64,000 bases of DNA from NCBI RefSeq assembly GCF_020618475.1, contig NZ_CP085336.1, positions 620,001 to 684,000 on the forward strand, written 5' to 3'. The translations under genes and the position numbers were made by a program. The DNA comes from Haladaptatus halobius. Its GTDB lineage: Archaea; Halobacteriota; Halobacteria; Halobacteriales; Haladaptataceae. A model generated the notes under the pieces. It saw only the letters and a program-made list of their open reading frames with translations. It searched no databases and had not been told where the DNA came from. Shown here piece after piece: positions 1 through 8,289 of this stretch. Position 1 is the first letter of the stretch. Each line of letters opens with the position of its first letter.

Positions 1-732
1 ACCACCGCCATGAAGGTTCTTGATTTGTTCGACAGGATTGCCTTCCTCAAAGTTGATCGGGATTGCATCGCAGTGCTCTTCTACGAGTTCAAGGCGGCTC
101 GGGACGCGATCCACCACGTAAATCTCAGAAGCACCCTTAAGCTTCGCACTGTACGCTGCCATCAATCCGACTGGACCAGCGCCGTATATCGCAACGGAGT
201 CGCCTGCCTCGAGATTGGCGAGTTCTGTACCGTGCCAGCCAGTCGGGAAGATGTCAGCCAGTAAGGCAAACGAATCTTCGTGTTCTCTTCCCTCTGGAAG
301 TTTAAGCGCGTTGAAATCTGCAAATGGGATGCGGAGTTTTTCGGCTTGACCGCCTTGGTATGGTCCCATTGCGACGTACCCATATGCCCCACCTGCGAAG
401 CCAGGATTAACGTTCGTACAGAAACCTGTGTAACCGCTCTCACAGTTCTCACAGAATCCACAAGCAACGTTAAACGGGGCGACAACGCGGTCTCCTTTTT
501 CAAGGCTACTGACTGCGTCTCCGACCTCCGTCACGGTACCCATATTTTCGTGTCCAAATACGATTCCCGGTTCCGCGGCCGTCCTCCCTTCGTACATATG
601 GAGGTCGGACCCACAAATACATGACGTTGTGATGTCAATTACTACATCATTTGGATGTTCGATTGCCGGTTCTTCAACTTCTTCGACTGCGACCTCATGT
701 TCGCCTTTAAAGACGACAGCGTCCATGGACAT
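1..732 (-). CDS. Zn-dependent alcohol dehydrogenase, formaldehyde-dehydrogenase-like (3' end outside window)
   Basis: The reverse strand reads 244 codons from an ATG at 732 (a second in-frame ATG lies at 726) and runs off the left edge. The N-terminal GroES-like domain shows CICGSDLHMYEG (catalytic Zn cysteine), then GHENMGTVTEVG and the structural-zinc cluster CGFCENCESGYTGFC. The Rossmann domain follows with YGAGPVGLMAAYSAK and VDRVPSRLELVEE. The GSDLHMYEGR and GHENMG wording resembles glutathione-independent formaldehyde dehydrogenases and related class III-like dehydrogenases. The Rieske demethylases just downstream would release formaldehyde, so a formaldehyde-oxidising role fits. Substrate is inferred; another zinc alcohol dehydrogenase activity is possible. 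Confidence 0.85.
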   Translation of the reverse strand, partial: MSMDAVVFKGEHEVAVEEVEEPAIEHPNDVVIDITTSCICGSDLHMYEGRTAAEPGIVFGHENMGTVTEVGDAVSSLEKGDRVVAPFNVACGFCENCESGYTGFCTNVNPGFAGGAYGYVAMGPYQGGQAEKLRIPFADFNALKLPEGREHEDSFALLADIFPTGWHGTELANLEAGDSVAIYGAGPVGLMAAYSAKLKGASEIYVVDRVPSRLELVEEHCDAIPINFEEGNPVEQIKNLHGGG

Positions 733-872
733 CGTTTGTAATACTCCATTCATCTTCTCTGGGCGACCATATTTATATCTATGGTCTACTTGGAAAATCA
801 CAAAAATGGATTCTTGAGAATGAATAATAGTGGACAGCTTGTGTCTTCTAATAATTGTTCTTCTGATGGTTT

Positions 873-1436: not shown

Positions 1437-2447
1437 CTATGAATTGTAGGCGTCCTGTGCGAGCTGGTGGAATCTGTGGACAGTATGTTCATTCGGCCCA
1501 AGCTGTGCTTGTGAAAGTGCACCTGTTTGCAGTCCTGCCCACTGGCGTTCAACCAACTCGAAGTCCTCCTCTTGCAGTTGACGACTTGTTCGAATGAAAT
1601 TCATCTCTTCCTCGGAGAGCTCTGGACTCTCGAAGTAGTAGTCTGCGATGAGCTGGAACCGGTTGGTGTCGATCGGGTCGATGATATATGTGCCGTAGCC
1701 GTCGGCGGTACCATACATATTGACCGTGAAGTTCGGCCAGAAGTAGTGGAACTGAGCTTCGTGTTCGTCATGAATTCGTAGCTCATCATCGACATCCTGT
1801 CTATGTTTGTAGTGAAGCACCCAATGGTAGTCGTTGACTTCAAGTTCAGATTTCTTAAGCCGTAGCCCTTTTACCCAGTCCTGATGGTTCGCTTGGCAGT
1901 GGTCACACTCTGAATAGTTGCTGCTGAATACCTTCCAGTTGCACTCAACCTCCGAAACGATGCGATTTGCGTGTTCGTATTTGCCGAGTGGAAGCGCTTC
2001 CAGACGATCTTTCATCACGCCAGCCTGTTCGTCAAGTGGCATCGGATCGTCGCTCAGATTGACGAAGATGAGTGGTCCAATTGAGTCCACGCGTACGTCA
2101 TCTAAATCATCAAGCTCGCCAGTATCGAGTCGACTTGGATCATCCATTGGAGCCTCTGGCACATGCTCTGAGCCATCACGTGCTGAGACATTGTGGAACA
2201 CCTGGATTGAATCATCGTCGTCACGGAGGACAACCAACCCACGACCGCCGACGGATCGAGTGAAGTACTGCCCTGCTTCTTTGATGCAGTTTGCGTGACC
2301 GGCATAAACCCAGTACTGGCCGAATATTTTGTCTTTCTCCAATTCAAGAATTTCTATATCAGTGAAATATCTCGCTGGCAACGCATTCGACTTTTCAGTA
2401 ATATCCGGGCTTACAGCTTTCGTCTGGGCTTCGTTCCACTGTGTCAT
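1437..2447 (-). CDS. Rieske-less paralogue of the GbcA-like oxygenase
   Basis: This is a 336-aa paralogue of the oxygenase at 3940-5073, collinear from MTQW to the C-terminus. The Rieske domain is destroyed. The CAH motif (residues 88-90 of the intact copy) reads SAR here, and about 41 residues carrying the second CPYH motif are missing without breaking the frame. The catalytic domain keeps its mononuclear-iron motif SECDHCQANH and the Asp of EEDFELVERQ. Without a [2Fe-2S] centre, electrons could not reach the iron by the usual route. It may be a pseudogene kept open by chance, a structural partner in a mixed trimer, or a product of gene conversion. Large stretches are nearly identical to the intact copy at DNA level. 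Confidence 0.85.
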   Translation of the reverse strand: MTQWNEAQTKAVSPDITEKSNALPARYFTDIEILELEKDKIFGQYWVYAGHANCIKEAGQYFTRSVGGRGLVVLRDDDDSIQVFHNVSARDGSEHVPEAPMDDPSRLDTGELDDLDDVRVDSIGPLIFVNLSDDPMPLDEQAGVMKDRLEALPLGKYEHANRIVSEVECNWKVFSSNYSECDHCQANHQDWVKGLRLKKSELEVNDYHWVLHYKHRQDVDDELRIHDEHEAQFHYFWPNFTVNMYGTADGYGTYIIDPIDTNRFQLIADYYFESPELSEEEMNFIRTSRQLQEEDFELVERQWAGLQTGALSQAQLGPNEHTVHRFHQLAQDAYNS

Positions 2448-3489: not shown

Positions 3490-3849
3490 CTAAAATGCGC
3501 ATAAGTGGTCGTCCTGTGGTTCGTATAGTCCACCACCCATTCTTATCTCGTGGATTTGATCCAACGTCTCTTTGACTGACAGGCCTCGTTCGTTCATCAC
3601 CGCCGCGATGATACCGACAGGAACACCATTTTGGTGGTGTTCTTCGAGTTGGCGAATGATGCCTTTGAGGTCCTGCGCAGTAATTCCGGTGTCTAGGTCT
3701 GTGTCTGCATGTTTTATCTTAATATCATGACCTGTTACCCGGTAATGTCGCCGGTAGAAGTCGATGATTTCGTTTGGACTATCGGTCTGTTGTGTAGCGT
3801 CACACTCTGGACAAGCAGCGACGTACGGTGCCTGGTCTTGTGAACTCAT
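3490..3849 (-). CDS. Small protein with Zn knuckle and MCM-like winged-helix C-terminus
   Basis: 119 aa. The N-terminus has a CPEC knuckle followed by a His-containing segment (RRHYRVTGHD). The C-terminal 60 residues (LKGIIRQLEEHHQNGVPVGI through MGGGLYEPQDDHLCAF) resemble the winged-helix domain at the C-terminus of archaeal MCM and related DNA-binding proteins, where GxIYEPxxxxLR is typical. It lies between the two Rieske paralogues on the same strand, so a local regulatory role is conceivable but not shown. The family call rests on the C-terminal motif only. Confidence 0.7.
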   Translation of the reverse strand: MSSQDQAPYVAACPECDATQQTDSPNEIIDFYRRHYRVTGHDIKIKHADTDLDTGITAQDLKGIIRQLEEHHQNGVPVGIIAAVMNERGLSVKETLDQIHEIRMGGGLYEPQDDHLCAF

Positions 3850-3939: not shown

Positions 3940-5073
3940 TTAGGAGTCATATGCATTCTGTGCGAGCTGATGGAATCTGTGGACAGTATGTTCATTCGGC
4001 CCAAGCTGTGCTTGTGAAAGTGCACCTGTTTGCAGTCCTGCCCACTGGCGTTCAACCAACTCGAAGTCCTCCTCTTGCAGTTGACGACTTGTTCGAATGA
4101 ATTCCTCTTCTTCCTCGGAGAGCTCTGGACTCTCGAAGTAGTAGTCTGCGATGAGCTGGAATCGGTTGGTGTCGATCGGGTCGATGATATATGTGCCGTA
4201 GCCGTCGGCGGTACCATACATATTGACCGTGAAGTTCGGCCAGAAGTAGTGGAACTGGGCTTCGTGTTCGTCGTGAATTCGTAGTTCATCCTCCACATCT
4301 TCATCGTGAGTATAGTGAAGCACCCAATGGTAGTCGTTGACCTCGAGCTCGGACTCGTTGAGTGAGATCCCTTTTACCCAGTCCTGATGGTTCGCTTGGC
4401 AGTGGTCACACTCTGAATAATTGCTGCTGAATACCTTCCAGTTGCACTCAACCTCCGAAACGATGCGATTTGCGTGTTCGTATTTGCCGAGTGGAAGCGC
4501 TTCCAGACGATCTTTCATCGCGCCAGCCTGTTCGTCAAGTGGCATCGGATCGTCGCTCAGATTGACGAAGATGAGTGGTCCAATTGAGTCCACGTGTACA
4601 TCGTTTAGGGCGTTCTCCTTGGAATCAAATTTCTGGACGTTTTCATCTTTAAGATCAGGATTCAGATGAGCTTCCTCAAAGCTTTTAGGCGTACTTCTAA
4701 GCTCTCCTTCGAGATCGTACGTCCAGAGATGATATGGACACTTAATCCGACGAGCGTTTCCGGGGTCAGTCATTGGGGTGTCGTCAACCATCTTTGAGCC
4801 ACGATGGGCACAGACGTTATCAAATGCTTTGACCTCTCCATCATGCCCACGTACGATGATTAGTTGTCGCTCTCCAACTGTGCGAGTGAAGTACTGCCCT
4901 GCTTCTTTGATGCAGTTTGCGTGACCGGCATAAACCCAATACTGGCCGAATATCTTATCTTTCTCCAATTCAAAAATTTCTGGGTCAGTGAAGTACTTGG
5001 CTGGCAATGCGTTTGATTTCTCTGTGATATCTACACTTACAGATTCGGTTTGGGAATCATCCCACTGAGTCAT
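3940..5073 (-). CDS. Rieske-type oxygenase alpha subunit, GbcA-like (probable glycine betaine demethylase)
   Basis: 377 aa from ATG at 5073; this start matches the MTQW start of the paralogue, although the frame opens six codons earlier. Rieske [2Fe-2S] ligands are present: C88-x-H90 in NVCAHRGSK and C112-x2-H115 in KCPYHLWTYD. The mononuclear Fe site shows NWKVFSSNYSECDHCQANH (H224, H229) and a late Asp in EEDFELVERQ. Enzymes of this type (GbcA, related stachydrine/carnitine oxygenases) remove a methyl group from a quaternary amine as formaldehyde, using O2 and a separate reductase. No reductase gene (GbcB type) is visible here. The context of BCCT transporters and dimethylglycine oxidases supports betaine as substrate; other trimethylated amines are possible. 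Confidence 0.85.
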   Translation of the reverse strand: MTQWDDSQTESVSVDITEKSNALPAKYFTDPEIFELEKDKIFGQYWVYAGHANCIKEAGQYFTRTVGERQLIIVRGHDGEVKAFDNVCAHRGSKMVDDTPMTDPGNARRIKCPYHLWTYDLEGELRSTPKSFEEAHLNPDLKDENVQKFDSKENALNDVHVDSIGPLIFVNLSDDPMPLDEQAGAMKDRLEALPLGKYEHANRIVSEVECNWKVFSSNYSECDHCQANHQDWVKGISLNESELEVNDYHWVLHYTHDEDVEDELRIHDEHEAQFHYFWPNFTVNMYGTADGYGTYIIDPIDTNRFQLIADYYFESPELSEEEEEFIRTSRQLQEEDFELVERQWAGLQTGALSQAQLGPNEHTVHRFHQLAQNAYDS

Positions 5074-7023: not shown

Positions 7024-8289
7024 ATGAGTGAACCCCAAGAAACCTTAATCGAATACGAGGATATTAAACGAGCAAACGAACGATTAGACGATGAGACAGT
7101 AGTCAAACGAACACCAATCGAACAGAGTACATCGCTTGGTGAGTTTGTTGGCGGAGATGTGTACCTGAAAATGGAGCATCTCCAATGGACTGGGTCGTTC
7201 AAGACAAGAGGAGCGTACAACAAAATTAAGCAAGACGTCGAACGTGGCATCGATAAGTTCATTGCTGCCAGTGCAGGCAACCACGCACAAGGTGTGGCGC
7301 TTGCAGCTACAAAGTGCGATGCAAATTCGACAATTGTGATGCCGAAGACTGCACCACAGGCGAAAGTAGATGCAACTCGTAAATACGGTGCAACTGTCGA
7401 ACTCGTCGGACAAGACTTCCAAGATGCGATGGAATACGCACAGAACCAAGCAGCCCAGAACGCCGCTGCTGAGTTCGTCCACGCGTACGACGATTGCGAC
7501 ATCGTTGCTGGACAGGGTACCTTAGGTATTGAAATATATGAGGACTGTCCAGACGTCGATACAGTTGTTGTTCCCATCGGCGGCGGTGGACTCATCAGTG
7601 GTATCTCAACAGCTATCAAACAACTGTCGCCAGACACACGTATTGTTGGCGTTCAGGCGGTTGGCGCTGAAACCGTCCACGAAAGCCTCGATAAGGGCGT
7701 TCCTGTGACGCTTGACGAAGTCGACACGATTGCCGATGGTATCGCAACCGGTGGGATTTCGTCGCTCACACTTAACCTTATTAAGGAGCACGTTGACGAG
7801 ATTGTTACTGTTACCGATTCAGAAATATCGCGTGCAATTCTCTTATTGCTAGAGCGAGCGAAGCAAGTTGTCGAGGGTGCTGCGGCAGCGTCTGTCGCAG
7901 CCATTCTAAGTGATGATCTTGACGTACGTGATGAGACGGTCATGCCACTACTTTGTGGCGGCAATCTGGACATGACCATGCTTCAGACGGTCCTAATTCA
8001 TGCACTTACCGAACGCGAACAACTTTTGCAACTGCGTGTACGAATCGAAGATACTGCGGGGAAAATGGAGAAAGTCTCTGGTGTAATCGCTAGCCACGGT
8101 GCAAATATCCGCACCGTTCGGCACGATCGGTCGGTAGATAACTTGGCCATCGGTGAAGCGTATCTCGTGTTCGAGGTCGAAACCAGTGGCATGGAACAAT
8201 CGCGGTCGATAGTCGAGTCCATCCAAGCCGAAGGGTACGCTGTCGAAGAAATGAATCGAAAGCGAGCACAGCAAGGAAAGGCGTTATGA
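7024..8289 (+). CDS. ilvA: Threonine/serine dehydratase with C-terminal ACT domain, copy 1
   Basis: 421 aa PLP enzyme, intact. The PLP lysine lies in WTGSFKTRGAYNKI (K60). The asparagine loop SAGNHAQGVALAA and the phosphate-binding glycine loop PIGGGGLISG are present, then a linker and an ACT domain from about residue 330 (LRVRIEDTAGKMEKVSGV). The family deaminates L-threonine to 2-oxobutyrate or L-serine to pyruvate through a 2-aminoacrylate-type intermediate. Located directly behind the A/B remnant, in the same order as the intact cassette at 54-61 kb, it more likely serves catabolic serine dehydration than isoleucine synthesis. Substrate preference cannot be read from the sequence. Confidence 0.9.
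   Translation: MSEPQETLIEYEDIKRANERLDDETVVKRTPIEQSTSLGEFVGGDVYLKMEHLQWTGSFKTRGAYNKIKQDVERGIDKFIAASAGNHAQGVALAATKCDANSTIVMPKTAPQAKVDATRKYGATVELVGQDFQDAMEYAQNQAAQNAAAEFVHAYDDCDIVAGQGTLGIEIYEDCPDVDTVVVPIGGGGLISGISTAIKQLSPDTRIVGVQAVGAETVHESLDKGVPVTLDEVDTIADGIATGGISSLTLNLIKEHVDEIVTVTDSEISRAILLLLERAKQVVEGAAAASVAAILSDDLDVRDETVMPLLCGGNLDMTMLQTVLIHALTEREQLLQLRVRIEDTAGKMEKVSGVIASHGANIRTVRHDRSVDNLAIGEAYLVFEVETSGMEQSRSIVESIQAEGYAVEEMNRKRAQQGKAL

Follow-up and report, generated by a model that had tools for sequence, protein, structure and literature searches.

A 64,000-nucleotide stretch of the Haladaptatus halobius genome (NZ_CP085336.1, positions 620,001 to 684,000; hereafter, the window) carries a gene, called S here, whose product resembles the alpha subunit of a Rieske oxygenase without its Rieske cluster, and the question raised by this locus is whether such a protein can still be a working subunit and, if so, where its electrons would come from. 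A full-length paralogue, F, lies close by (Table 1). The first-pass annotation had described S as an oxygenase paralogue with the Rieske centre removed and with the iron site and reading frame kept, and both halves of that description were borne out. In the pairwise alignment, CAH of F was replaced by SAR in S, and an in-frame gap removed a net 41 residues, CPYH among them, leaving 336 open codons; the mononuclear iron motif ECDHCQANH and the third-ligand stretch EEDFELVE were identical in the two proteins. Taken with the findings below, these features make it very likely that S functions as a conserved iron-only alpha subunit within a mixed oligomer, where it would be fed by the Rieske cluster of the adjacent F or, in the Natronococcus clade, of a second type of partner, D.

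The domain assignments followed the same division. Pfam PF00848 (Ring_hydroxyl_A) matched S at 64.9 bits, above its cut-off, and PF00355 (Rieske) matched only residues 45-86 at 14.9 bits, against a cut-off of 20.3 bits, whereas F passed both cut-offs and contained both centres in one chain. S lacked the CxH...CxxH ligands of a Rieske [2Fe-2S] cluster and possessed the bridging acid and the 2-His-1-carboxylate set of the catalytic domain. The markers of Group V (quaternary ammonium) Rieske oxygenases, which are the CxxC pair beside the iron and the cation-binding Tyr203-equivalent, were present as Y, C, and C in both proteins, and S and F were the sole PF00848 proteins in the window genome. The closest solved relative, by sequence (1e-39 for F and 5e-26 for S) and also by fold, was the carnitine monooxygenase CntA (PDB 6y8j), with residues E205, C206, H208, C209, and H213 of which the S iron motif aligned. 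The best NCBIfam match was GbcA (NF058607) at 144.9 bits for F and 82.7 bits for S, far under the equivalog cut-off of 670 bits. In the predicted structure of S, the beta strands of the Rieske domain were retained and only the cluster-binding loops were gone, in a fold that matched CntA with low-to-moderate confidence; the single-chain AlphaFold models were of moderate quality (mean predicted local distance difference test score, 60-61), and no fine structural claim is based on them.

Table 1. Features of the S/F locus (positions are those of the window)
Feature	Position	Strand	Basis or remark
S, Rieske-less Group V Rieske-oxygenase alpha subunit, 336 residues	1437..2447	-	ATG start, open frame; Pfam; orthologues
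S, SAR at the site of the Rieske CAH ligands (residues 88-90)	2178..2186	-	Alignment with F
S, point at which a net 41 residues (with CPYH) were deleted in frame	2135..2136	-	Placement alignment-dependent
S, mononuclear iron motif ECDHCQANH (bridging Glu180, His183, His188, Cys pair 181/184)	1884..1910	-	Invariant in 19/19 S
S, Asp295, third iron ligand	1563..1565	-	Invariant in S; aligns with EDLNLVE of CntA
S, part of catalytic domain with 6/7 long F-identical tracts (attributed to gene conversion)	1468..2091	-	Permutation test
F, full-length partner and paralogue with Rieske and iron sites, 377 residues from ATG	3940..5073	-	Alignment, Pfam
F, Rieske ligands CAH...CPYH	4729..4812	-	Alignment
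F, iron motif ECDHCQANH	4387..4413	-	Alignment
Small HVO_B0008-family gene between F and S	3490..3849	-	Adjoins F in other loci too
Partial gene (truncated by window edge), formaldehyde dehydrogenase-like, glutathione-independent type	1..753	-	TIGR02819, 334 bits

S was searched for in genome contigs and in 392 genomes of the class, and the loci were then read directly. Orthologues with the same deletion, the absence of which, together with stops in population variants, had been proposed in the first-pass annotation as the sign of a simple pseudogene, were found in many genera. Besides the window genome, about 20 haloarchaeal genomes contained S, and the genera included Halogranum, Halegenticoccus, Halostagnicola, Natronococcus, Natrinema, Natronorubrum, and Natronolimnohabitans. 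The 19 intact copies, that of the window among them, each had a length of exactly 336 residues. The first Rieske Cys was replaced by Ser in every one, and the His was replaced by Arg in 18 and by Asn in 1; the E/H/H/D iron ligands and the Cys pair were kept in 19/19, and the Rieske ligands in 0/19. Within the class sample, S occurred in 16 of the 392 genomes, each of which had F or D on the contig that carried S (16/16), including one genome (G226) in which the partner gene was cut by the contig end and only its catalytic part was visible. In most cases, the partner gene lay upstream in the same orientation at a distance of 0.6-3 kb; elsewhere the distance was about 10-15 kb. F was found without S in Haloarcula amylovorans, whereas S was nowhere seen without a Rieske-bearing paralogue on its contig, an asymmetry that would be expected if S depended on F.

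The suggestion that S reflected either selection or a very recent event was upheld in its first part and not in its second. The window proteins were about 74% identical; the comparison of their genes showed a mosaic of seven identical tracts of 51-131 nucleotides with diverged blocks between; six of the seven lay in the catalytic domain. The longest identical run (131 nucleotides) was significant by permutation (p = 5e-5), also when synonymous codons alone were permuted (p = 4e-4). Synonymous divergence (dS) between S and F varied along the gene: it was about 1.0 in codons 1-64, reached saturation around the Rieske remnant, and was 0.21 in the catalytic domain. In the tree of the N-terminal region and Rieske remnant, all 19 S sequences fell on one branch (support, 100/99) that every bootstrap tree (100%) recovered. 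In the catalytic-domain tree, by contrast, S and F mingled and often paired by genome, for example in loci L012 (100/99) and L086 (97/93). The tract mosaic and the contrast between the two trees imply that the duplication and deletion are old and that conversion later homogenised the catalytic domains. As far as the tree shows, the duplication and deletion that gave rise to S were ancient and single, and the sequences indicate that the catalytic domains of S and F have repeatedly been swapped by gene conversion, by which S was not repaired and F was not damaged; the block without Rieske ligands has remained distinct. A young duplication was rejected as the cause of the high S/F identity, since the identity was confined to tracts, with diverged blocks between, and pairing by genome occurred only in the catalytic-domain tree.

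S is under purifying selection: among its orthologues, the ratio of nonsynonymous to synonymous substitution rates (dN/dS) was about 0.07-0.26, and in a simulation of drift for the S pair of the window and Halogranum, about 13 stop codons were expected and 0 were observed. The orthologues, the tree, the dN/dS values, and the stop-codon simulation ruled out S as a recent deletion or pseudogene. The wider explanation, in which S stayed in frame by luck and D is likewise a decaying copy, could draw on interrupted S frames in two draft genomes, though these lay at stretches with undetermined bases; set against one old clade, an equal length in 19 copies, the low dN/dS, and the lack of stops in both S and D (see below for D), it is extremely improbable. 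The frames concerned were those of Haloterrigena salina and Natrinema versiforme (L044, 5977-7084; L017, 3455-4573), which were interrupted or had a repeated C-terminal piece; in addition, an F frame in L021 (5977-7218) was 30 residues above the usual length. These oddities are probably assembly joins at the near-identical S/F tracts rather than biology.

In six Natronococcus-clade genomes (L016, L018, L019, L020, L022, and L085), the partner itself had changed, and D took the place of F beside S. D was 359-364 residues long, retained the Rieske ligands CAH...CPYH in 6/6 genomes, and matched the Rieske domain at full score (68-70 bits); in its iron site, both His residues were deleted or replaced in 6/6, and the Asp was lost in 4/6. 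No intact F was found in these six genomes. Because D and S were the sole PF00848 proteins in five of the six, S holds the only intact iron site of the family there; the remaining genome, that of Natronococcus jeotgali (G032), was the only D-bearing one with an extra Rieske and Ring_hydroxyl_A protein (G032:C78:26405-27598), which was unlike D or F. In another genome of the same genus (G298, locus L083), an intact F still stood beside S. For the more distant D pairs, about 9-10 stops were expected under drift at their dS and 0 were found, which argues that D is not a dying gene.

Nonsynonymous and synonymous codon differences were counted in three pairs of D/S genomes, which are not perfectly independent. 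For D, the nonsynonymous/synonymous counts were 11/42 in the Rieske region versus 96/70 in the catalytic domain (p = 3e-6), and for S in the same genomes they were 22/13 versus 29/67 (p = 0.001). The difference between D and S was significant for the Rieske region (p = 1e-4) and for the catalytic domain (p = 2e-5; Fisher tests), and F showed no such contrast (12/40 versus 21/136, p = 0.12). At the level of codons, selection is thus mirror-imaged, S and D each keeping the half that the other has lost. The reciprocal loss in Natronococcus lends strong, though indirect and genetic, support to the mixed trimer suggested in the first-pass annotation. A role for S as a regulatory or structural pseudo-enzyme that tunes an F homotrimer and performs no chemistry would agree with the apparent self-sufficiency of F, which occurs without S, and a ring containing S would have fewer Rieske clusters; however, the iron ligands and Cys pair are invariant in S, its catalytic domain is its most constrained part, and in five Natronococcus-clade genomes it has the family's only intact iron site, so that such a role is decidedly unlikely. 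It is likely that the two redox centres have been split between paralogous alpha subunits, S being iron-only and the Natronococcus D Rieske-only, such that neither would work alone and electron transfer would be obligatorily between gene products.

A route for this transfer is suggested by CntA, in which the head-to-tail alpha3 ring places the two centres 44 Å apart within a chain and 12 Å apart across the interface; the bridging Glu205 connects them there and is essential for activity (PMC7948474). CntA and other Group V enzymes (GbcA and Stc2) share with S and F the bridging Glu, the 2-His-1-carboxylate, the CxxC pair, and the Tyr203-equivalent (PMC7948474, PMC10952381), but each chain of the CntA homotrimer has both centres, whereas S has no Rieske centre and D no iron centre. 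The observed sequences and their distribution, together with the linkage, the tree, the gene conversion, the pattern of selection, and the reciprocal loss, lead us to infer co-assembly, with an electron route in which the S iron would be reduced across the interface of a head-to-tail ring by the cluster of a neighbouring F; in Natronococcus, the Rieske-only D would supply the electrons. Since electrons in the head-to-tail rings of this family run from the Rieske cluster of one subunit to the iron of its neighbour, S would need no cluster of its own. The number of productive contacts would depend on the stoichiometry: in a strict threefold (C3) ring, there would be two productive interfaces in F2S, one in FS2, and one in any D/S ring. 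The history probably began with a single duplication and a single early loss of the cluster-binding subdomain by in-frame excision; recurrent gene conversion would then have kept the two catalytic domains similar in S and F, until in one clade the partner lost its iron site and the S/D pair became locked in mutual dependence.

In vitro, peroxide can serve as the oxidant for some Rieske oxygenases. S and F might accordingly assemble apart, with S acting as an oxidant-driven iron enzyme by a peroxide shunt that needs no Rieske cluster. This is hardly credible, given that the bridging Glu, which is required for cross-subunit electron transfer (PMC7948474), is invariant in S and that the linkage of S to a Rieske partner is universal. 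Three points weigh against a mixed ring of S with F or D. A D/S pair in a simple C3 ring would offer no more than one productive Rieske-to-iron contact in each trimer and would be inefficient unless the assembly differs; the window genome also encodes other Rieske-domain proteins, some of them soluble and of about 120 residues, that are possible donors in principle; and the Rieske remnant of S evolves fast among orthologues (dN/dS mostly 0.2-0.8), so that it may be only a scaffold.

A separate donor has a real precedent in NdmCDE, the 7-methylxanthine N7-demethylase of caffeine degradation in Pseudomonas putida CBB5, in which NdmC is a Rieske-less oxygenase and the cluster resides on the reductase NdmD (PMC4408171). 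Like S, NdmC is a nonheme-iron oxygenase subunit that relies on the cluster of another protein; unlike the likely donor of S, which is a paralogous alpha subunit, that of NdmC is fused to a reductase, and a glutathione S-transferase-like protein, NdmE, is needed. The origin of S, by duplication of F, is separate from that of NdmC. No NdmD-like reductase or NdmE was recognised among the conserved neighbours of S (whole genomes were not searched with NdmD or NdmE, and no NdmC sequence was compared). Soluble Rieske-type proteins in the same genomes also speak for a Rieske ferredoxin or a Rieske-bearing reductase in place of F or D, but every S seen was linked to F or D and none occurred without such a partner, and the strong constraint on the Rieske domain of D after the loss of its iron site is sensible only if the cluster serves another subunit; a separate donor is therefore unlikely.

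Rieske oxygenase structures of the types alpha3, alpha3beta3, alpha3alpha'3, and alpha3alpha3 were listed in a 2025 review (PMC12445004). The alpha3alpha'3 assembly of NdmA and NdmB (6ICK/6ICL) likewise combines two different alpha-type subunits (PMC12445004), but neither centre has been lost there. Duplicated homomer subunits can turn mutually dependent as paralogue heteromers, a process for which two studies give the general framework (PMC6711710, PMC11066126). The S/D pair would differ from such heteromers in that the lost parts are two redox centres working across an interface, and its dependence can for that reason be read from sequence. In the open-access literature searched, no description was found of an alpha-subunit pair that splits both centres or of Rieske-less alpha subunits in haloarchaea. 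The evidence for cross-subunit electron transfer in Rieske oxygenases has so far consisted of structures and point mutants; if the mixed ring is real, S/D would be a natural complementation test, one paralogue bearing the donor site and the other the acceptor site, in which the electron route could be tested with two cleanly separated proteins and a controllable ring composition. It would also be a tree-placed, sequence-readable case of a self-sufficient ring enzyme becoming an obligate two-gene machine by reciprocal loss. Annotators should note that S would pass as a broken dioxygenase and D as a normal one, and that both labels are probably wrong.

The surroundings of the pair bear on its substrate. 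Loci with F/S or D/S often contained a formaldehyde dehydrogenase-like gene, a DAO/FAO_M/GCV_T protein, a CobW-type GTPase, and an HVO_B0008-family gene; in the window, the first of these matched TIGR02819 at 334 bits, under the equivalog cut-off of 637 bits. Proteins with the architecture DAO-FAO_M-GCV_T-GCV_T_C, resembling dimethylglycine/sarcosine dehydrogenase, adjoined the pair in many genera (L080, L082, L086, L014, L016 [225-2798], and L084). These neighbours point to oxidative N-demethylation, and the enzyme is probably an N-demethylase of a methylated amine from which formaldehyde would be released. In most loci, the gene immediately upstream of F or D encoded a haloarchaeal protein of about 400 residues (for example, L086:5520-6743 and L016:2886-4124), which had no match in Pfam or NCBIfam and is possibly a regulator.

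The estimated contamination of the window genome was 9.5%, yet close relatives of both S and F lie linked in Halogranum amylolyticum. A threonine-dehydratase-like open reading frame was recognised by eye near the pair (window, 7024-8289). Between the formaldehyde dehydrogenase-like gene and S (window, 760-1436), there were degenerate coding remnants interrupted by stops; one of them, VLGVDLGINNITVA, looks like the beginning of a TnpB-type (IS200/IS605) nuclease, which suggests mobile-element scars beside S.
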